IMG/VR virus record: IMGVR_UViG_3300047995_000032
Location: 1 to 21,791 of that record
Strand: one strand, 5' to 3'
Length of the DNA stretch: 21,791 bases
DNA from: a virus
The position numbers were made by a program, and so were the translations under genes. Below are positions 1,659-15,574 of the stretch, one piece after another; position 1 is the first letter of the stretch, and each line of letters opens with the position of its first letter. Under the pieces are notes generated by a model. The model was given only the letters and a program-made list of their open reading frames with translations, did not search any database and was not told where the DNA came from.

Positions 1659-4600
1659 TTAAACCTCAGTTAAGTTGAACTTATATTTCTTACCAGTGGT
1701 TCTATTGATTAAGAATAGATCATCAGCACCCTCTTGCATTGTCCAGTTTCCTTCAGTTCCATCTACCTCGTTACCACCCATTCCTGTGTTGTTTAGATGA
1801 ACGTCACCAGAGTAGACGTTTGCCCAACGTAAGTTAGATGCTCCAAGATCTTGTGCGTTATCTGAACCAGGTACTATGTCACCATCGGAAGATTGTATGC
1901 GTAATCTTTCTACGAGTACACTACCATTATCAACTGCAACAACAAAATCAGCTAAATTATCACCTTGATCATGAGCATATAATCTAATATCACCACTACG
2001 TCTTGTTCTAAATTCCAATCCATGATAATAACCATTATTAGAACCAGTGTCTTCAATTCTTAAACAGGCAGTATCGGCATTACCTCCAGCATAGTTTACA
2101 CTAGATTTACCTACAACTCCCATGTAGCATGTAGCGTTTGAAGTATTACCTGGTCTAACTTTGAAATTATCACTAACAGTCAATGCACTAAGAGTTCCGA
2201 CAGATGTTAATGATGATCCTGTGACTGCACTACCAAGTGTGTATGCAACACCAGCACCACTTAAATCAATCTGTCCTTGACCACCACCATTTGTAGGTCC
2301 GATAACTTTATTAGTATCACTGGCAATTAGAATACCATTTACATAATAGTTCTTACCACTTGCAAGATCTATATGTTCTGATGATGTCCAACTATTATAT
2401 GTTACACCACCATCAACTCCTCTCCATAGGAATGTCTTATCACTTGTACCCTTAACAATAATACCACCGTCTTCTGCAGCAGTATCAGAAGGACCTATCG
2501 CACTGAATGTAGGTGTACCAGATCCTGTTACGTTGTTGCTCAATACCGCTGTGTCGTTTGTGATACTTACAATGATTGTTCCAGCAGGAACTGTAATACC
2601 AGCAGTGTTTGATGTAATCTCCATGCCAGGTATTAGTCCTAGTGTAGGAGCAATCGCTACGATATTTGCAGATCCAGATACAGCAGTACATGTAAACTGT
2701 GTACTTACAACAGCAGCAAGTTCAATTGCCTTGTCTGTAATCTGTACAATATTAGATTTAATTGTGGTTGTAGTACCATTAACTGTAAGATCACCCTTGA
2801 TAAGTGTATCTCCATCTACGGTAAGATTTTGACTAGTACTAATATTGTAACTAGAATCACCACGCAACCATGCTTGTCCACCAGAACCAATAACAAGTTG
2901 ATTATCTCCACTAATATTAGGAGGTCTAAATGTTACATCAGCAGAAGTCTCGTTGTATGCAGGACCTATAAGAACGTTGTTATTACCTTGTACATCAAAA
3001 CCAGCATAGTGTCCAATACAGACGTTTCCACTACCCGTCGAGTTTGTCTCCATTGCATTGTTACCAATCGCAAGGTTCTTACTACCAGAAAGTGTAACAA
3101 GTAATGCATCTTTACCAATACCAATATTATTATTTCCGACACCCGCTGCCCTCAAAACCCTGTGGCCAATTGCAGTATTGGATGCACCAATATTATTTGT
3201 GAACAATGCTTGGTATCCAAATGCTGTGTTCTGAGATCCAGAAGTGTTTGCAGCAAGTGCTGATGTACCCACACGAGTGTTTGTATTTACAGCACCACCA
3301 CCTCTACCAATTTGCATTGGATCACTAGAAGTTCCACGTATTGTAAGGTCTGCATTTTCAATGTTAAGATTACCATTGAATACAGCGTTATCATTTGTAT
3401 CAACACCAACAGTGAGATCTTCTTTAAGTATTAAGTCATGGTTGATAGTTGTATCACCAGTTGAAGCACCCATGACGATGCTTCCAGCAGCACCACCAAA
3501 CAATATACTTGTAGCACCAGTGTTAACTAAATTAAATCCTGCAGATGTTGTAGTAATACCAGTTAAAATTGTAGGGTTGGTCTGGAATACTAACTTATCT
3601 AATCCTGTTGTATCTGTAATCAAACCACGCATCTGTGTAGATGTGGTAGATGAGAATGATGCAAGAGTATCAGATCTATATGCTACGTCTCCACCAACTC
3701 TAAAGTTAACAGCAACTGTTGCAGCAGGGTTATCTGATGTTAATGTTAGAGAATCATTTACATCCAACACTTTAGATGTTGCGATGTCTAGTGTTGCAGA
3801 TGCAGTTGTACTAACTATAAGACCATTGACTGATGTCGCAACAGCAGCACCGATGTTAGGTGAGGTAAGTGTTGGAGATGTAAGAGTTTTGTTAGTAAGA
3901 ATCTGTGTCTCTGCCTCTGTAACAAACCTTCTTTCAACAGAACCGTCCCATCCTCTCCAGTATCCACCAGAGTTAAACCACTGTAATGATTGATATTTTG
4001 TGACAGATCCACTACCATCTGTTTCTAAGTTTATCTGTACACCGCCGTCATTTCCAACTAAATTATTTCCCTTTCTTAATTCTATACTATTGTCTTCTAC
4101 TATTAAAGTAGTAGTATTTAAAATTGTTTGAGTGCCATCTACAACTAAGTCACCAGAAACTGTAACAGTAGACCCGTTATCAGAAATCAAACTGTTTCCT
4201 ATCTGACTGTTACCAGAGTCCCACTTTAATAATTGATTACCACTAAAGTTACCAGCATTTTTTAATTGGAAATCTGTACCTGATAATAAGATACCAGCGG
4301 ATGCTGTCAACGCTGCACCAGTGTCATCGTTAGCAGATGTGACTGTGAATGTTGTTACACCACCAGCAGTTGCTTGTGAAATGCTAGTAGCACCAGTTCC
4401 TACAAACTTAAAGTCTCCTGCAGTAACAACGTTAGCACCAGATGAAAGTCTAGTTACTGTGTTTGTATCTACACTAGCAATACTAATTGTGTTACCCGCT
4501 TGTGATACTGTGACGTTTGCTCCACCAGTAAACTCGACATCACCAGTTACAAGTGATCCAGCTGCTCCTCCCTTCAATCTGGTTATAGTATCAACAGATG

Positions 4601-5420
4601 TATATGTAATTGTTGAGTCGCCATTACCATCAACACCTTGAGCAACAGTAGTAGCACCACCAGATAAGAATGTAAAGTTACCAGGATTTAATACTTGTCC
4701 TGTGGTTGCTCTTATCTTCGTGATCGTGTCAACATATGTTGAGTTGATCGTAATTGTTTTAGATGCTGTGTCCTGAGATACTGTAGAGGATCCAGTTGCA
4801 GCAATTGTAATATCTCCAGTCTGTGCTGTACCACCAGTTCCAGACTTCACTGTTGTTATAGTATCAGCATCAGGTGCTGTACCAGATATTGTAATGACTT
4901 CACCAACTCTATTGATTGCTAGAGCAAGAGCATTAGATCCAGCAGGAACAGCAGCAGGAGGACCTACAGCGATACTGACATCATCATCTCCTTGTCCTGA
5001 TCCACCAGCAGTTAGTCTAATAACTTTTGTATTATTATTGACACCATCTTGTGCACTCACAACGTAAGTGGTGTTGTCATTTGGTGTTGTAACAGATCCA
5101 CCTAGAGCAATAGCAGCACCGTTTACTTGTATTGTGGAGTTTGAAAGAGCAGCGTTTGGTATGTTAGAGAGAGTATTAGCAGATCCAGAAATTACACATG
5201 AAGTAAAAGTTTTATTTTCTAAGACTTGGTTTTGTGTTAGATACACATCACCAGGTGTTCCCCATGAAACAACCGTACCGTTACTGGTAAGATATTTTCC
5301 TGCTCCTGTGTCACCACTTATGACTATATTGTTACCAGACAATTCTAAATTGTCACCAGAAATCAGTTCCTCAATCTTTTGAGAAACCGCATTTACTATT
5401 AACGGAAAACGATCTGCCAT
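1659..5420 (-). CDS. Large tail fibre protein (1253 aa)
   Basis: The N-terminus (A-D-R-F-P-L-I-V-N-A-V-S at 2-13, then S-G-D-N-L-E-L) matches the attachment end of long fibres in T4-like cyanophages. Residues 185-362 hold about four imperfect 45-residue repeats built on D-T-I-T, T-G-D-x-x-F and G-G-A-x-T-V-S-Q. Residues 425-515 and about 875-1000 are two copies of a module (V-D-G-T-Q-T-I-L and V-N-G-T-T-T-T-I). Residues 717-825 are YadA-head-like repeats with N-T-A-F-G, N-T-A-I-G, N-N-I-G-I-G, N-L-A-I-G and N-V-C-I-G. The last 75 residues (G-S-D-N-A-Q-D-L-G, R-W-A-N-V-Y-S-G-D-V-H-L, K-K-Y-K-F-N-L-T-E-V) are a conserved cyanophage fibre end. A late promoter motif lies 32 bases before the ATG. 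Two collar genes follow directly and probably form its tip. Role clear at family level; receptor unknown. Confidence 0.9.
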   Translation of the reverse strand: MADRFPLIVNAVSQKIEELISGDNLELSGNNIVISGDTGAGKYLTSNGTVVSWGTPGDVYLTQNQVLENKTFTSCVISGSANTLSNIPNAALSNSTIQVNGAAIALGGSVTTPNDNTTYVVSAQDGVNNNTKVIRLTAGGSGQGDDDVSIAVGPPAAVPAGSNALALAINRVGEVITISGTAPDADTITTVKSGTGGTAQTGDITIAATGSSTVSQDTASKTITINSTYVDTITKIRATTGQVLNPGNFTFLSGGATTVAQGVDGNGDSTITYTSVDTITRLKGGAAGSLVTGDVEFTGGANVTVSQAGNTISIASVDTNTVTRLSSGANVVTAGDFKFVGTGATSISQATAGGVTTFTVTSANDDTGAALTASAGILLSGTDFQLKNAGNFSGNQLLKWDSGNSQIGNSLISDNGSTVTVSGDLVVDGTQTILNTTTLIVEDNSIELRKGNNLVGNDGGVQINLETDGSGSVTKYQSLQWFNSGGYWRGWDGSVERRFVTEAETQILTNKTLTSPTLTSPNIGAAVATSVNGLIVSTTASATLDIATSKVLDVNDSLTLTSDNPAATVAVNFRVGGDVAYRSDTLASFSSTTSTQMRGLITDTTGLDKLVFQTNPTILTGITTTSAGFNLVNTGATSILFGGAAGSIVMGASTGDTTINHDLILKEDLTVGVDTNDNAVFNGNLNIENADLTIRGTSSDPMQIGRGGGAVNTNTRVGTSALAANTSGSQNTAFGYQALFTNNIGASNTAIGHRVLRAAGVGNNNIGIGKDALLVTLSGSKNLAIGNNAMETNSTGSGNVCIGHYAGFDVQGNNNVLIGPAYNETSADVTFRPPNISGDNQLVIGSGGQAWLRGDSSYNISTSQNLTVDGDTLIKGDLTVNGTTTTIKSNIVQITDKAIELAAVVSTQFTCTAVSGSANIVAIAPTLGLIPGMEITSNTAGITVPAGTIIVSITNDTAVLSNNVTGSGTPTFSAIGPSDTAAEDGGIIVKGTSDKTFLWRGVDGGVTYNSWTSSEHIDLASGKNYYVNGILIASDTNKVIGPTNGGGQGQIDLSGAGVAYTLGSAVTGSSLTSVGTLSALTVSDNFKVRPGNTSNATCYMGVVGKSSVNYAGGNADTACLRIEDTGSNNGYYHGLEFRTRRSGDIRLYAHDQGDNLADFVVAVDNGSVLVERLRIQSSDGDIVPGSDNAQDLGASNLRWANVYSGDVHLNNTGMGGNEVDGTEGNWTMQEGADDLFLINRTTGKKYKFNLTEV

Positions 5421-5451: not shown

Positions 5452-5459
5452 TATTTATG
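5452..5459 (-). promoter_or_regulatory. T4-type late promoter motif CATAAATA
   Basis: The minus strand reads CATAAATA here, one base from the T4 late consensus TATAAATA. It lies 32 bases before the ATG of the 1253-residue fibre, with no other promoter signal in this short gap. Its internal TAA is also the stop codon of the protease-esterase gene. Recognition by a phage gp55-type sigma factor is inferred. Confidence 0.65.
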
Positions 5460-8400
5460 TGATGACGATTGATCCACCCATACCAAGAGATGCGTGTGGA
5501 GAACAAACATAATAATATGTTCCTGATGACACTCCTGTTGTGTTCCAAGACAGAGTTCCACTCTGTGTTCCTTGTGTTCCAGTTACAGTTCCTGTTGATA
5601 CTTGACTACCAGAACCACCAACATAAACAGTCTTAATATAGAATGGATGACCAAATGTATTTGAAACAATAAAGTTAATTGTATCTCCTGCCTGTACAGT
5701 AACTGTAGGATCATTACCAGTTACTAATCCATTCCTATCATTTCCACTTAGTTGATAGTTAACGTTACTGTTTGCAGTCACAGTTATATTATATGTATTA
5801 GATGGTAATGTAACTGTAATTGTCTGACCATCACTCTCTACCCATTCCTCAAACAAAGCAATCATCTTTGCATTGACACCATGTCCACCATTACTTGCAC
5901 AATGAACAACTTCATTTACATTCCCATTAATATTATAACGATAGAGTTGTGTTGCTGCGTCTCCTTGGAATGTTAATCCAGTATTCTGTTCTCCTCCTGC
6001 CCATCCCATAGCTTGTGCCATACGATATGTGGATAGTCTAGCACCTATGAATTGAATACCAACACCAGCACCACCATTATAAGGTATGACACCATCATTA
6101 GTATTCTGCATCATCAATATTTTTCTACCAGCAACAGGAACTTTCTGAACAGTGTATCCATAACTTCCAGCAGATCCACTAGTATCTAAATGATCTGTTG
6201 GCATAAAGAACTGTGTAAAATTATTTACCTCATTAGTATGAAATTGAGATACAATAGGAACAATTAAATCAACAGCAGGATCATCTATCTCAACAAATGC
6301 TCTGCATGCTAGTGCTGCACCATTAGATATACCAGAGATTCTAATTCTTGTGCTATCTACATTTGTAAATGTCTTCAATAACTTAATAAGATTTCTTAGA
6401 TATTCTATGTCAGGAGCGATGCTACTTTCATCAACTATATTCCAACTGCTTCCAGAACCATAAGGACCTACTCTAATATGATCTCCTAGTGTAGCATAGA
6501 TTGGATCATTGATAGTACTACCATTACCACCATTACCATGTAAACAAATCATTACTGGGTATCCTGTAGGACCTGCTTCATTAGTAGGAATGTATAGATC
6601 GGAAAGATAATTATATAAACCAGCAGTTGCAGGATCTTTAAAACCTGTAGGACCTACTGTTGAATTATATGATTTCCATTCTTTTTGTATTGATAATTGT
6701 GATGAGGTAGATAATAGACCACTAGGAAATCCATTAGTAGCATGTAATTTTTTAGGTCTAGGAAATACTGCACCACTTCTTCTATCTCCTACTTTATTCT
6801 GTAAATTACCATTCTGTTTTCTAGGATTTTTTGTTACCAAATATTTGTTAGGACTATCTTTTCTACATGAGTTGTCAGCAAATGTTCCTCCACCAACATC
6901 AAATGTCATGTCACCAAAGACACTATTGTTATTCATGTATGCACGGAGATCATCATTACTAAATCTATCTGTCCTCCTAGCACTAGCAACCATTGCTGCA
7001 ACACTAGCAATTAATGGTGATGCCATACTAGTTCCACTTATAGGATACATCCAGTTATTACCACCATATTTCGTATCAGCGAATCCTGCTCCTGCATTAC
7101 CTCCTGTAATAGTAGCAGGATTTCCCCATGCAGATAATATATTAGTGCCAGGTGCAAAGACATCTATTCTAGGACCGAAGTTTGTAAAAGATGACCTCTT
7201 GAATGAAGCATCACTATTCAATGATCCTACCATAATTGCATTTGGTGCACTGGCAGGAGACATACCTCTATTAAAATAGACTGGAGAGTTACTATTATAT
7301 CCTTGGAAGATAACAAAATTATTATAATTTGCATCACCTTGTGGTACTACATGAAAATTATCATTACCAGCAGCACAAATAATAACTATACCATCTGCAA
7401 TAGCATCTTCTACATCAGCATTGACAGATGTAAGTGTAACAGGAATACTCCATTTGTTAGGAGCGATACCAAAATCTGTTTCTAATCCTGCCATTGTCCA
7501 ACCAGCAGCATTAGGATTACCAGAATTGTATTGCACACCTTGATAATTTACTTCTACAACATTTCCAATTGCAATACCAGCAGGAAATTCTGATTCTAAA
7601 GATGTCTCTGTACTATACCCCCAACTATGATTTGATATTGTAGGGTTCTTATATCCAGTTACAGGATTGATAGGTTTCTTTTTATGGAATGCTCTAAGGT
7701 AATCATATAATAATAGTGTAGGTAAACTCTGACCAGAAGGCATCGTTCCTAGAATTTGTAATCCATATATGTTTGCTTCGTTTGCAAGTCCATAATAATT
7801 TCCTGCACAAGTTCCAGCAACGTGAGTTCCATGATACTCAGGATTGGTTGCATTACTATAGTAAGTTACAGCTCCAGTAGGTAGAGTCTGACCATCATCA
7901 TCTATAGATGTCACTTCAGTATTCAACTCGTTGAACCAATCATATGAAACAAATCTGTTTGCTGCAAACCCACTCCAATCACCACAGTCAGCAGATACAG
8001 GATCGTCACAAACAACTATGTCTACGTGTCTACCATCTCCCCATGCATTTTCATAATTATCACCTGGTATGGTTGTAACATATTGATTATAACTTCCTCC
8101 ACTTGATCCAAACTGTCCTTTACCTCTAACTGTACCTGTAGAATCAATGGTATGTGAAAGACCCCATGGAAAACTATTGTTAGTATCAATGCCTCCTGCT
8201 TTCCAGAAACTTCCCTCAAGTGTTCTAGGAACTTGATTATCAGTTGGTGTTGCACATTTCTTAGGATATATTCCTCTATCTTCTGGACGCAAGTCTACAT
8301 CCCATACTCTAGGATCTTGTTTTAATTCTTCTGCTTGTTCATCTGTCATCCAGTAGTGTGTGTTCCTACTGATAGGACGTTTCATATTTAAACGAAACCC

Positions 8401-8478
8401 ATTGTCCTTCATATCATCATAAAATCCGTCCAAGTCTTCCCTATTATGAAGAGTGACAATATAGATTTTTTCTGACAT
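5455..8478 (-). CDS. Virion-associated subtilisin protease / esterase / cupredoxin fusion (1007 aa)
   Basis: Three enzyme-like domains are visible. Residues 1-70 resemble an I9-type propeptide. Residues 145-535 are a subtilisin-like S8 protease with Asp in H-V-D153-I-V-V, His in H216-G-T-H219-V-A-G, the oxyanion Asn in A-A-G-N372 and Ser in S-G-T-S484-M-A-S-P. Residues 635-882 resemble a poly(3-hydroxybutyrate) depolymerase or feruloyl-esterase alpha/beta hydrolase, with H647-G-N-G, nucleophile elbow G-I-S718-N-G, Asp in N-D795-G and His in G-G-H866-G. Residues 885-1007 form a cupredoxin-like domain with H944 and C992-S-P-H995-x4-M1000, the plastocyanin ligand pattern. I chose the ATG at 8478 over one 18 bases upstream because GGAGAG sits 5 bases before it. 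It lies among tail genes and is preceded by the stop of the 347-residue fibre, so a virion role is inferred. It could cut host surface proteins, or its own tail partners. Confidence 0.85.
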   Translation of the reverse strand: MSEKIYIVTLHNREDLDGFYDDMKDNGFRLNMKRPISRNTHYWMTDEQAEELKQDPRVWDVDLRPEDRGIYPKKCATPTDNQVPRTLEGSFWKAGGIDTNNSFPWGLSHTIDSTGTVRGKGQFGSSGGSYNQYVTTIPGDNYENAWGDGRHVDIVVCDDPVSADCGDWSGFAANRFVSYDWFNELNTEVTSIDDDGQTLPTGAVTYYSNATNPEYHGTHVAGTCAGNYYGLANEANIYGLQILGTMPSGQSLPTLLLYDYLRAFHKKKPINPVTGYKNPTISNHSWGYSTETSLESEFPAGIAIGNVVEVNYQGVQYNSGNPNAAGWTMAGLETDFGIAPNKWSIPVTLTSVNADVEDAIADGIVIICAAGNDNFHVVPQGDANYNNFVIFQGYNSNSPVYFNRGMSPASAPNAIMVGSLNSDASFKRSSFTNFGPRIDVFAPGTNILSAWGNPATITGGNAGAGFADTKYGGNNWMYPISGTSMASPLIASVAAMVASARRTDRFSNDDLRAYMNNNSVFGDMTFDVGGGTFADNSCRKDSPNKYLVTKNPRKQNGNLQNKVGDRRSGAVFPRPKKLHATNGFPSGLLSTSSQLSIQKEWKSYNSTVGPTGFKDPATAGLYNYLSDLYIPTNEAGPTGYPVMICLHGNGGNGSTINDPIYATLGDHIRVGPYGSGSSWNIVDESSIAPDIEYLRNLIKLLKTFTNVDSTRIRISGISNGAALACRAFVEIDDPAVDLIVPIVSQFHTNEVNNFTQFFMPTDHLDTSGSAGSYGYTVQKVPVAGRKILMMQNTNDGVIPYNGGAGVGIQFIGARLSTYRMAQAMGWAGGEQNTGLTFQGDAATQLYRYNINGNVNEVVHCASNGGHGVNAKMIALFEEWVESDGQTITVTLPSNTYNITVTANSNVNYQLSGNDRNGLVTGNDPTVTVQAGDTINFIVSNTFGHPFYIKTVYVGGSGSQVSTGTVTGTQGTQSGTLSWNTTGVSSGTYYYVCSPHASLGMGGSIVIT

Positions 8479-9554: not shown

Positions 9555-11699
9555 TTACCAAGTTGTTAGTGCTGCTCTTTTCCAAGTATTAGTTGCAACA
9601 GCAATGTATACATAACCAGAATCATATCTAATATCACCCGCAGTACCAGTAGAACTAGCAGTAGCAGGGGCGTTTGAGGATAACGCTGGTGCAAGTGGTG
9701 GTGCTACATCAACCCACTGTGAACTATCAACATCTTGATAGTAAATTTTTAGACGTCCACTGTCACTTTCCCACCATAGGTCACCAGCAGATGCTGCTGG
9801 AGGTGTGTCACTTATAGTTACACTAGCACCTCCACCACCGCCAACTCCCCATGCTACGTTACCAGCTCCATCACTCGTCAATACCTGACCATTTGTACCA
9901 TTAACTGTTGGATAGGTCAAACCACCAGCAGTCAACGCTCCTGATACGGTAACTCCATTGGTAGTTGTTTCTAATTTTTTACTTCCTGCTCCTGTTCCCC
10001 AGTAAAGTTCAACACTTAAAGCAGCACCATTGTTAACACCATTTTCTAGAACTTTAATAGCATCATAACCACCGTTACTAATATAGATATCGTTGCCACT
10101 TTGTATCTTAATATTTTTACCAGTAGATTGAGTTGATAAAAATAAGTCTGAATTATATGCAGTAATTTCTGATTGACCACCGTTCGTATAGGTTTGTTTA
10201 AGTTCAAGATTATCAAAACTTACTCCACTCCCTAACCAGATTTTAGCAGAAGCACCACCAGCAGTTTGTTTTTTAAACCAAAGTAAATGGTCAGAATCAT
10301 CATATGTAATCTTTGGAGCATTTGCTGCATATTCTCCAAAATTTATATCTTTCCCTGTAACAGTATTACCTCTATCAATTACAGATTGTAGTGTATCTGT
10401 TTCTGATGTAAGATAGTTTGGTGTCCAGTTAACCCATTGTGTACCACTATATTGTAACAAGTCTCCTGCTGTTTCATTAGTAAGAGTTACACCAGTATGA
10501 ACTCCTAGTCCATGAACAGGAAGTTGTGTTAGATATCCTTGTGATGCATGGTTACCCCATCCAAATGCTGAGTCCCAGTTAGAACTATTATCTGTAGTTG
10601 ATGTATAAACTCCAGCACTAGATCTCTTCATCAAACCACTGGTTGTGAAATCAGCATCACGAATAGCATCTCCTAGTGATGTTATGTAACTACTAAGATC
10701 TGGTGGAGTATATGTAAATACACCACTACCATTATTGTATACAAGAGTACCTCCTCCTGCTGCTGTTGATGATTGAACAGAAAGATCTGATAGTGAAAGA
10801 CCTCCTCCACCACCACCTGTTAAATCATTTGCTGCTTTCCATCTTGATGTACCAGAATCCCATTTAAGAACCTGTCCATTTGTAGGTGCAACAGATAGAT
10901 CTACATCAGATAGATTATCAAGGATTGAATCTTCATTTAATAATTTTTTCCATGCAGTATTGTGTGAATAGTATGCATTACCATCAGTAGTATTCTTTAA
11001 AAAGAAACCATCATAAGTTGTAGCAAGAGATGAAGTAATATCTGCTGCTACAAACGCATTACTATATTGTAATTTTGCTGTAAAGTATGCTGGACTTGTA
11101 CTTGTATTACCTCTACTAACAACTGTCTGTAGAGTATCAGACTCCATAGTTAAGTATCCTACAGAAGCATGATTACCCCAACTGTATGATGTATCCCAGT
11201 TAGAAATTTTTGCAGTAGTTACATTAGATGCAGCAGATGCAGAGAATACAGGATCAGTTTCTGTATATGATGTTAAGTATCCTCTAGTAGTTACGTATGT
11301 TTCTGTAGCGTATGATGAAAGATCTGGAGGAGTGAATGTAAACTCTCCATTACCACTGTTGTATGATAGAGCAGCAGTTCCTACAGATGCTGTAGTGACA
11401 CTTGATTGAGGAGGAACTACTGGTTTGTTTAAGATTACAGCAGCACCACTCGAAGCATTCCAATCAGAGTTTACCTGTGCTGCAGGAATAGTTGGTCTAT
11501 TAGATAAGTCATTATAACTTCCACTAAATGGTGTTACCCATTGCACTGTAGTACCTGTAGTAGACAGGACTTGTCCTGTAGTACCAGACGATCCTGCTGT
11601 CTGTATTGGTTTTCCAGCAGGGATATTCAGACCCTCCTTCAGATCTATCGGTGAGTCATCACCGTAATTAGCAATTTCATTTGCAAGAATTTTTGACAT
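9555..11699 (-). CDS. Modular tail fibre-like structural protein (714 aa)
   Basis: The N-terminus M-S-K-I-L-A-N-E-I-A-N-Y-G-D-D is a hallmark of cyanophage fibre and tail-associated proteins. The body repeats a module of the form G-x-F-T-(Y/F)-T-P-P-D-L-S-S-Y, followed by W-G-N-H-A-S-x-G-Y-L-T and D-T-L-Q-x-V-x-x-R-G-N-T; at least two full copies and one partial copy are visible. Near the C-terminus come G-Q-V-L-T-S-D-G-A-G-N-V-A-W, then S-D-T-P-P-A and G-D-L-W-W-E-S, then G-T-A-G-D-I-R-Y and W-K-R-A-A-L-T-T-W, which are widespread phage fibre end motifs. No enzyme domain is seen. A ribosome site AGGA is 8 bases before the ATG, next to a hairpin arm that would cover the start codon. It opens the fibre cluster and has its own late promoter motif. 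Confidence 0.85.
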   Translation of the reverse strand: MSKILANEIANYGDDSPIDLKEGLNIPAGKPIQTAGSSGTTGQVLSTTGTTVQWVTPFSGSYNDLSNRPTIPAAQVNSDWNASSGAAVILNKPVVPPQSSVTTASVGTAALSYNSGNGEFTFTPPDLSSYATETYVTTRGYLTSYTETDPVFSASAASNVTTAKISNWDTSYSWGNHASVGYLTMESDTLQTVVSRGNTSTSPAYFTAKLQYSNAFVAADITSSLATTYDGFFLKNTTDGNAYYSHNTAWKKLLNEDSILDNLSDVDLSVAPTNGQVLKWDSGTSRWKAANDLTGGGGGGLSLSDLSVQSSTAAGGGTLVYNNGSGVFTYTPPDLSSYITSLGDAIRDADFTTSGLMKRSSAGVYTSTTDNSSNWDSAFGWGNHASQGYLTQLPVHGLGVHTGVTLTNETAGDLLQYSGTQWVNWTPNYLTSETDTLQSVIDRGNTVTGKDINFGEYAANAPKITYDDSDHLLWFKKQTAGGASAKIWLGSGVSFDNLELKQTYTNGGQSEITAYNSDLFLSTQSTGKNIKIQSGNDIYISNGGYDAIKVLENGVNNGAALSVELYWGTGAGSKKLETTTNGVTVSGALTAGGLTYPTVNGTNGQVLTSDGAGNVAWGVGGGGGASVTISDTPPAASAGDLWWESDSGRLKIYYQDVDSSQWVDVAPPLAPALSSNAPATASSTGTAGDIRYDSGYVYIAVATNTWKRAALTTW

Positions 11700-12787: not shown

Positions 12788-13044
12788 GATGTGTAAGGGG
12801 ATGTAACTGTATCTTTTCTGCCACCATAGGCAGCAACTTCTGGGTCAGGGTCTAACCACTTAGTATATTCGTGGTCTTCTATACAACAATCTAGTTGTGC
12901 TTGACTATCTAGCAAGTACATGTCATTGTATCTTCGTGTCCATTCATTGAACTTCTGTATTCTAAAATCTGGATAACCAGTTTTTAGTTTGCCAAACTGT
13001 ACATACCTGTACGGATAGCGTTCTAAGATCACTTCAAGTTTCAT
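12784..13044 (-). CDS. Small protein of unknown function (86 aa)
   Basis: I do not recognise a family. The sequence M-K-L-E-V-I-L-E-R-Y-P-Y-R-Y begins at an ATG (13044) that overlaps the membrane-protein stop in an ATGA arrangement. A longer frame opens 45 bases further up but lies inside the upstream gene and adds an unlike Tyr/Ser-rich stretch, so I reject it. The protein is rich in aromatic and charged residues (W-T-R-R-Y-N-D-M-Y, Y-T-K-W-L-D-P-D-P) and has adjacent cysteines (C-C at about 53-54). There is no membrane segment. The ending A-A-Y-G-G-R-K resembles processed or disordered phage tails, but this is only an impression. Confidence 0.7.
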   Translation of the reverse strand: MKLEVILERYPYRYVQFGKLKTGYPDFRIQKFNEWTRRYNDMYLLDSQAQLDCCIEDHEYTKWLDPDPEVAAYGGRKDTVTSPYTS

Positions 13045-14078
13045 GGTAAAAAGGTGCCAATAAATGCTAATACTATTAGTATAGCACACATTCGTCCTAA
13101 GACAACATAATATTTACGAATTGGTGTACCAAAATATTGTTGACCTATCATTAAACATTTATGTGCAGGAGATAATAAGTACCCTGAGTATTCTGTAGCA
13201 AGAAACCATGTAAGATATTGAGGACCAAAGATCAACACAAGTGCTGATGTCATTCCTGCATACTTACCTGATGATCCCATGATCCATGCTGCTACCATGG
13301 ATACAATAGTTACAGGTATAATCATTTCTGGTGTTGCAGATTTAAGATATACCATAACTGGTTCTTTAATCAATCCTACCACACCACCTAGTGCTAAAAC
13401 TATTGTAGATATAATTGCAAACTGTTTATTAATATACTTGCCCCAGTTCCAATCCTTACATAACCATGCATAGTAACAACACATAGCAGCAAACCAAGGA
13501 AAGAATAGGATTGCTCCTGCTTTACCCACACATAACAAGAACCATATTGTTGCTATGAATGGTGCCCAACCTTTTAATGCTCTCTTCCAATCAAAATCTC
13601 TGATGTTACTCATGTCAGGTATGACACTTCTAGGATTTACTTTGGTAAAGATATACCACCAAGTGTATCCAATGCATACGAGTAGAAAAGGAAAAGTATA
13701 ACTTAGCATCTCTCCATAAGTTATACCTAGTGCTGCCATAGGAAGAATGATTGTCTTCTCTAATGGTGACCACCAATAGTAATGATGTGTAGAAAGATAA
13801 TCTATAATACCAAACTCACTTCTTTTCTTTTTATCAGGTGGTGCAATAGCATCCAATAGTGGTGCTGACAATGCAACTCTACCAGGTATTGGTAAGACTC
13901 CTCCTATCAATGATGTAATAATAATCATGATGCGAGCATCTTTTACATATCTTTTTGCTAATGAATATACATCATCAAGTACATGATACTGTCTGATGTA
14001 ACCGCCTATTATCATAATACCAAAGATATAACCCATGTAGAGTTCTTTCTGTGCTATTGATTCTATAATTTTAATCAT
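13041..14078 (-). CDS. DUF401-like polytopic membrane transporter (345 aa)
   Basis: This is an integral membrane protein with about eight to ten hydrophobic helices, including residues 14-30, 49-66, 103-120, 123-145, 170-205, 220-240, 255-275, 278-300 and 323-344. Two family marks stand out. One is G-G-V-L-P-I-P-G-R-V-A-L-S-A-P-L-L-D at about 59-76, close to the P-M-P-G-G-x-x-x-S-A-P loop of DUF401 and GntP-like members of the ion transporter superfamily. The other is Y-L-L-S-P-A-H-K-C-L near residue 300, a DUF401 C-terminal motif. DUF401 is uncharacterised but predicted to carry organic anions. The phage copy would act in the host inner or thylakoid membrane. It starts with a 4-nt overlap after the Phd-like gene and ends with a 4-nt overlap into the next gene. 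Family recalled from motifs; substrate unknown. Confidence 0.72.
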   Translation of the reverse strand: MIKIIESIAQKELYMGYIFGIMIIGGYIRQYHVLDDVYSLAKRYVKDARIMIIITSLIGGVLPIPGRVALSAPLLDAIAPPDKKKRSEFGIIDYLSTHHYYWWSPLEKTIILPMAALGITYGEMLSYTFPFLLVCIGYTWWYIFTKVNPRSVIPDMSNIRDFDWKRALKGWAPFIATIWFLLCVGKAGAILFFPWFAAMCCYYAWLCKDWNWGKYINKQFAIISTIVLALGGVVGLIKEPVMVYLKSATPEMIIPVTIVSMVAAWIMGSSGKYAGMTSALVLIFGPQYLTWFLATEYSGYLLSPAHKCLMIGQQYFGTPIRKYYVVLGRMCAILIVLAFIGTFLP

Positions 14079-15151: not shown

Positions 15152-15574
15152 TTAAAAATAATCTTTTCTATAGTATCTTCCTAAGATGTTACTATTATAA
15201 TAGGCAGGAGTGCCATCTGTCAACCTCTTTGTCAGGACATCATTTAAAAAGAGTTGTCTTGTCTCTGCGTAGTTTGTTTTTCCGACTGTTGGATGGAGCG
15301 AGAGGATTTCTCTTCGGAAATTCTCTTCTCCCATTGTTCTAATATCTTGTTTAAGTTCGTCAGAGCTTCCAAAATATCGTTTCCAGTTTGACTCACTTGT
15401 AACTCTTCGCTTTCCTCCTCTGGGTTTTCTTTTTTGCACGAAGTACTTTCTTCCGATGTAGGACTTCCCATTGATGGTGTTGGTGATGCAATAGACGAAC
15501 CCATAGTGATCGCCGATGTCATCAGAATCAAAAATATTGCCTTTATAAATCCACGGGTTTGTGTACTCTGCCAC
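15152..15574 (-). CDS. GIY-YIG nuclease-domain protein (140 aa)
   Basis: Residues 24-45 carry the GIY-YIG nuclease core: Y-G25-F-V-Y28, a short turn, then S-Y39-I-G41-R42-K-Y. A Glu in F-R-R-E89-I-L and a later Asn (Y-Y-N127) are candidates for the remaining catalytic positions. The start M-A-E-Y-T-N-P-W-I-Y and end N-I-L-G-R-Y-Y-R-K resemble a family common in T4-like cyanophages. Translation appears to start at GTG (15574): an in-frame TAG lies 21 bases upstream and no ATG comes between. The AGGAG ribosome site (15589-15593) is better placed for an ATG at 15582 in another frame. It lies between pcyA and talC and could be a free-standing homing nuclease or a domesticated DNA-processing enzyme. 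No second DNA-binding domain is obvious. Confidence 0.82.
   Translation of the reverse strand: MAEYTNPWIYKGNIFDSDDIGDHYGFVYCITNTINGKSYIGRKYFVQKRKPRGGKRRVTSESNWKRYFGSSDELKQDIRTMGEENFRREILSLHPTVGKTNYAETRQLFLNDVLTKRLTDGTPAYYNSNILGRYYRKDYF

Follow-up and report, generated by a model that had tools for sequence, protein, structure and literature searches.

This locus raises the question of what a single protein that combines a subtilisin-like protease, an alpha/beta hydrolase and a plastocyanin-like domain might do among the tail genes of a virus, and whether its copper-type end is tied to the photosynthetic host. The window, i.e., the whole stretch of DNA that was analyzed, is a linear virus record of 21.8 kb (21,791 nucleotides), the gene set of which (primase-like, nrdA, nrdB, transaldolase, glutaredoxin, 2OG oxygenase and tail fibre genes) is that of a T4-like cyanophage. 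The gene of interest extends from 8478 to 5455 on the minus strand and encodes 1007 residues. The preliminary description of this DNA had the coordinates right; the plus strand at 5455-8478 is riddled with stop codons. The tail-region setting proposed there is borne out: the gene sits together with tail fibre and baseplate genes and near gp9/gp10-like genes. In Kyanoviridae, the tail locus is conserved as talC-...-tail fibre-small fibre-S8 protein-structural protein, and the locus order of the window is found in ACG-2014h, ACG-2014e, S-WAM2 and S-RSM4. The features considered are listed in Table 1.

Table 1. Coordinates of the gene, its domains, its neighbours in the window and a cellular relative of its last domain.
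Feature	Residues	Position	Strand	Key residues	Basis or remarks
Whole gene	1007 aa	5455..8478	-		ATG at 8478; stop 5457-5455; near-identical copies in two further IMG/VR contigs (L001, L002)
N-terminal domain, subtilisin-prodomain (I9-like) topology	1-75	8254..8478	-		Model; Foldseek
S8 subtilase	~85-540	6859..8226	-	D158, H216, S484, oxyanion N372	Pfam 1.7e-28; alignment; Foldseek
Linker between protease and esterase	555-617	6628..6816	-		pLDDT mostly <50 at 555-586 and 609-617
Alpha/beta-hydrolase esterase (predicted)	618-890	5809..6627	-	S718, D795, H866	Invariant triad; model; Foldseek
Cupredoxin (predicted)	894-1007	5458..5799	-	H944, C992, H995, M1000	Pfam Copper-bind; alignment; profile
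Tail-fibre-like gene (phrog_9627), directly upstream	347 aa	8480..9523	-		Position kept in ACG-2014e, S-CAM4, S-RSM4
Tail fibre protein (phrog_9729)		9555..11699	-
Virion structural protein (phrog_6002), directly downstream		1659..5420	-		Syntenic structural protein in relatives
134-aa cupredoxin, example	134 aa	L301:7946-8347	minus

The presence of protease, alpha/beta hydrolase and cupredoxin domains in one protein is backed by profiles as well as by AlphaFold models, which in Foldseek comparisons match S8, esterase/PHB depolymerase and cupredoxin folds, as the structural check proposed at the outset had anticipated. The full-length model (pLDDT 80.6, pTM 0.54) should be considered as informative on the domains and not on their mutual arrangement. 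The first enzymatic domain matches Pfam Peptidase_S8 above the cut-off, and Foldseek aligns the full-length model to proteinase K with E-values of 1e-16 to 1e-17 and TM scores of 0.75-0.83, depending on the target. It presents the Asp-His-Ser triad and the oxyanion Asn in an S8 fold, and all four residues are invariant in the alignment as scored (15 rows, the window and 14 relatives, with the N372 region poorly aligned in L009). Of the triad first proposed, H216 (HGTH) and S484 (GTSMASP) stand. D153 is replaced by D158 as the catalytic residue: both aspartates are invariant in the 15 rows, and alignment of VDIVVCDDPV to the subtilisin motif VxVxVIDTGI places the catalytic Asp at D158. Ahead of the protease lies a prodomain-like region (residues 1-63) that was absent from the earlier account. 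In the model, its elements (E4-10, H13-25, E29-32, E39-44, H46-52 and E58-63) follow a strand-helix-strand-strand-helix-strand order, and the Foldseek alignments to pro-subtilisin E and ProN-Tk-SP cover more than 540 columns. Pfam I9 gave sub-threshold matches in four of eight relatives (E 0.009-0.075) and no match in the protein of the window. The fold and triad, and apparently the topology of a prodomain, are those of proteinase K and the S8 subtilisin family, from which the window protein differs in being viral, in carrying large insertions and in being fused to two further domains. In three other loci (L086, L175 and L179), a cupredoxin domain is set inside the S8 protease part itself.

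For the second domain, the triad S718/D795/H866 is as originally read; it is invariant in nine rows, with S718 lying in a GISNG motif, and the fold is matched structurally. No Pfam esterase model was called above its cut-off (BD-FAE, 0.03), and the NCBIfam PHA-depolymerase model matched at 2e-10, below the equivalog cut-off. As the scores against NF050058 (40.5 bits, cut-off 150) and TIGR01840 (12.9 bits, cut-off 107.85) are under the curated values, the domain is called esterase-like and is placed in no subfamily. PDB searches by sequence were weak, and the fold was settled by structure comparison. The model of residues 588-1007 (pLDDT 90.7) retrieved acetyl xylan esterase B as the best Foldseek match (1.9e-12), then feruloyl esterases and PHB depolymerases, while its C-terminus matched rusticyanin. 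The alpha/beta-hydrolase fold with a Ser-Asp-His triad is that of the PHB depolymerase/feruloyl-acetylxylan esterase group. The order of the triad is shared with these nearest structures (the acetyl xylan esterase AoAXEB, feruloyl esterases and PHB depolymerases), although the identity is only about 20%. Judging by the model, the second domain is thus a predicted acetyl-xylan/feruloyl-esterase-like alpha/beta hydrolase.

The third domain is a cupredoxin with a complete predicted type-1 copper ligand set. It scores above the curated cut-off of Pfam Copper-bind (PF00127; 2e-8, 34.9 bits against 21.2) and contains the His-Cys-His-Met set, while a profile of the C-terminal domain matches plastocyanin, amicyanin and rusticyanin chains with the ligands aligned. 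The C-x2-H-x4-M spacing and the upstream His that had drawn attention to this end are thus confirmed as C992-x2-H995-x4-M1000 and H944, a full type-1 set. The C-x2-H-x4-M form is found in the window and its closest group, and most relatives carry the amicyanin-like C-x2-H-x2-M.

It should be considered, however, that the domain could be merely a beta-sandwich adhesin, in which the ligands are a relic and the virion contains no copper. Copies without ligands do persist within the same proteins, and the copy in the S-CAM1 tail fibre has no site; such persistence indicates that the fold also does something that does not depend on the metal. Against this reading, all four ligands are among the eight columns that are invariant in 17 diverse rows, with identity down to 34%. 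Moreover, in S8-anchored loci, a sample not selected on the copper domain, all four ligands are present in 43 of the 54 cupredoxins that span the site. In the remaining 11, His, Cys and His are lost together, with Met lost too in 10, while the framework residues G, T, Y and I are still held, and each of these domains sits in a protein with another, intact CxxHxxM site. Such loss or retention of the ligands as a set is, at the level of sequence, the signature of a predicted metal site, keeping in mind that nine of the 11 ligand-less domains are close relatives of one another. Divergent copies in other phage proteins, described below, also argue against a relic, a reading that we therefore consider unlikely.

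Several very large viral proteins of 2,200-3,100+ residues (L048, L051, L053, L059, L069, L106 and L107) contain cupredoxin-like domains in tandem, and in several of them the site is intact in the first copy, whereas the second is without Cys and His (YYYVSENAQAM). The S-CAM1 tail fibre (L033:7293-9545) contains a cupredoxin-like domain without the Cys-His-Met part, followed by an S8-like stretch.

The fusion of the three domains had been described as a new kind. It is, however, already present in GenBank, where Synechococcus phage ACG-2014h is the only one with the full S8-esterase-cupredoxin order. This protein (ACG-2014h, also S-MbCM7, gp177, AHB80591.1, T4-GC_292) is annotated as a hypothetical protein and shares with the window the domain order over 99% and the genome position, while being 41% identical and carrying C-x2-H-x2-M. 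The survey of domain order that had been called for adds about a dozen viral contigs with the fusion, and S8-cupredoxin proteins without the esterase are commoner. Among complete S8 proteins in all fetched loci, 48 are S8-cupredoxin, 35 S8 alone, 12 S8-esterase-cupredoxin and 21 other cupredoxin-containing arrangements. The S8-cupredoxin form is found in ACG-2014e/i/j, S-CAM4, S-H9-1 and AG-345-P14; in all of these but the last, a comparison with the window showed a common S8 domain, C-terminal cupredoxin and locus, the differences being the missing esterase and the amicyanin-like C-x2-H-x2-M. S8 alone is found in S-WAM2, S-RSM4, S-CREM1, S-H38 and Sf-FR1. For the first four of these, a whole-genome search revealed no strong cupredoxin anywhere, so that the copper head is dispensable in some phages. 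The esterase, in turn, is found beside baseplate genes and behind a different N-terminal domain (YHYH in S-SSM2) in S-RIM14-, S-SSM2-, S-SSM4- and ACG-2014d-type phages.

The same modules are also encoded by separate genes. About 20 distinct viral loci present an esterase gene, a cupredoxin-bearing gene and an S8 gene in adjacent order. In four loci (L198, L199, L240 and L244), the cupredoxin is part of the S8 protein instead, and a shorter middle gene lacks it. The middle gene of L227 scores above the cut-off of the Pfam model for the T4 gp9/10 N-terminal domain, and in S-SSM7, the S8 gene (T4-GC 292) directly adjoins a gp9 that ends in a cupredoxin. The window thus fuses modules that elsewhere lie side by side at the baseplate, and from gene order and sequence, the predicted esterase, cupredoxin and S8 domains belong to a single module of the baseplate/tail region that is conserved.

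The cupredoxin reaches well beyond this module. With the L227 domain as the query, 318 phage records matched in 320 places, mostly annotated as gp9 baseplate wedge tail fiber connector, and all four ligands were present in all 11 of the gp9 or fibre proteins read. The gp9 connectors of Syn19, S-RIM2 and ACG-2014b, for example, end in a homologous cupredoxin with all four ligands, but differ from the window protein in having an N-terminal T4 gp9/10 domain and neither protease nor esterase. The long tail fiber proximal subunit of S-SCSM1, annotated as 'virion protein', contains a homologous cupredoxin with intact ligands, and S-SCSM1 virions have been studied by mass-spectrometric proteomics (PMC9602691). 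For S-CREM1, the S8 protein of which is without esterase and cupredoxin, 14 virion proteins are reported. The numbers of records and places, together with the single site in each esterase-cupredoxin-S8 cluster, could be read to mean that each phage genome has just one copper domain. This was rejected, as a sensitive whole-genome search revealed divergent extra cupredoxin-like copies in giant structural proteins (L313-L324), with CxxHxxM in 10 of the 12 that were read. These copies suggest, on the basis of the motif, that a virion may have several copper-type sites. A pattern scan yielded more than 538 loci with the domain in viral contigs, a set that is biased because the pattern contained Cys and His, while the same type of scan yielded 17 loci in 84,980 cellular genomes, some of them possibly viral contigs. 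The predicted copper-site domain is thus rare in cellular genomes and common in cyanophage tail machinery. Our search of the open-access literature for cupredoxin, plastocyanin-like and copper-binding tail or baseplate proteins revealed no blue-copper-type domain described as a phage tail part, and the domain is apparently an undescribed, although common, tail part of marine cyanobacterial viruses.

The most likely reading, judging by folds and residues, is that the protein acts as a host-surface enzyme. Specifically, we give a probability of roughly 0.58 to its being a modular baseplate/tail-fibre component of a T4-like cyanophage, in which the S8 protease, esterase and cupredoxin act at the host surface. 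The protein would be a virion part close to where the fibres attach, with the prodomain presumably keeping the protease inactive up to the stage of assembly or release. Once contact is made, the predicted protease would trim a surface protein, and the predicted esterase would strip acyl groups off a surface glycan, which would open the way to the tail. The cupredoxin would bind one copper ion and may serve as a stable head for docking, stabilisation or receptor contact and not as an electron carrier. Tail-borne depolymerases are well known, and the window protein is a variant of such tail-borne surface enzymes; the most interesting part is the copper-site module, which is widespread in the baseplates and tails of cyanophages.

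Of the two roles that the preliminary description had offered, host-surface weapon and maturation factor, the surface enzyme is favored and the latter is less likely, given the company of tail fibre, baseplate and gp9/gp10-like genes. As a maturation factor, the S8 protease would cleave structural proteins of the phage as particles are assembled, and the other domains would serve as its anchor, in line with the prodomain-like N-terminus of the model and with so unusual a protease within a structural gene cluster. The locus, however, contains tail fibre and baseplate genes and not head genes, and the partners of the protease, whether fused to it or encoded next to it, are a carbohydrate-type esterase and gp9-like connectors. 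T4-like phages, moreover, already have a prohead protease of their own, gp21. We thus hold a maturation role to be improbable. An equally low probability is given to a late-infection enzyme that is not part of the virion and attacks the host surface or debris at lysis: release by lysis would need no signal peptide, but the place among the tail genes is conserved and the neighbouring cupredoxin gene is gp9-like.

That the domain is a plastocyanin taken from the host, which would supply photosynthetic electron transport in the infected cell, is hardly credible, for although the C-x2-H-x4-M spacing, the photosynthetic host and plastocyanin being the best NCBIfam model would fit it, the score is under the equivalog cut-off (PetE, TIGR02656; 37.5 against 87.85 bits), host PetE lies across a branch of length 2.1 in the protein tree, the domain is fused to tail enzymes without a signal peptide, most relatives carry the other spacing, and its family centres on gp9-like tail proteins. 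The link first drawn between the plastocyanin-like end and the photosynthetic host thus finds no support. Plastocyanin, amicyanin and rusticyanin do share the cupredoxin fold and type-1 ligand set with the window domain, but these are stand-alone electron carriers, whereas the phage domain scores under every equivalog cut-off.

The nearest relative of the window's cupredoxin is a 134-residue protein with a signal-peptide-like start from Prochlorococcus-family genomes, intact in 13 of the 400 sampled (L280 and L282-L293), where its neighbours are ordinary cellular genes. It is 66-67% identical to the window domain (L263/L280 copy) and has the same C-x2-H-x4-M, but it is a stand-alone protein of a cellular genome, and it differs from the PetE of the same family. 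It groups with the window-type domain with support of 98/96 in the protein tree and 100/100 in the DNA tree, and in the former it falls, well supported, among the phage sequences. Nonetheless, the claim that the secreted host protein derives from the phage domain was not upheld, as a monophyletic phage group is compatible with the AU tests (p 0.144 for protein, 0.29 for DNA). This secreted relative suggests that the domain was exchanged between phage and host, and the Prochlorococcus protein is possibly a phage-derived decoy or the host donor.

A broader proposal, which we put forward tentatively and at somewhat less than even odds, is that marine cyanomyovirus particles are copper proteins, with type-1 centres in the baseplate/tail-fibre apparatus (usually in gp9, here at the tip of a protease-esterase fusion) that are needed for adsorption, and that some Prochlorococcus secrete a copy as a possible decoy or receptor blocker. 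Were these sites to be occupied by copper, hundreds of the sequenced cyanophages would have a redox-active metal on the part of the particle that reaches the cell first. This would bear on host recognition by abundant viruses, on how virus particles take part in trace-metal chemistry and on those gp9-type and tail-fibre proteins of cyanophages that are unassigned.

Three further minus-strand features of the window may be mentioned. Positions 13041-14078 encode a DUF401 membrane protein (Pfam 1.7e-11, phrog_14035), possibly an anion permease auxiliary gene. Between the transaldolase and small genes, an ORF at 15152-15574 resembles, by eye, a GIY-YIG type endonuclease. The adjacent short proteins at 475-1266 and 1271-1657 have a common tail-collar-like domain, an apparent duplication.
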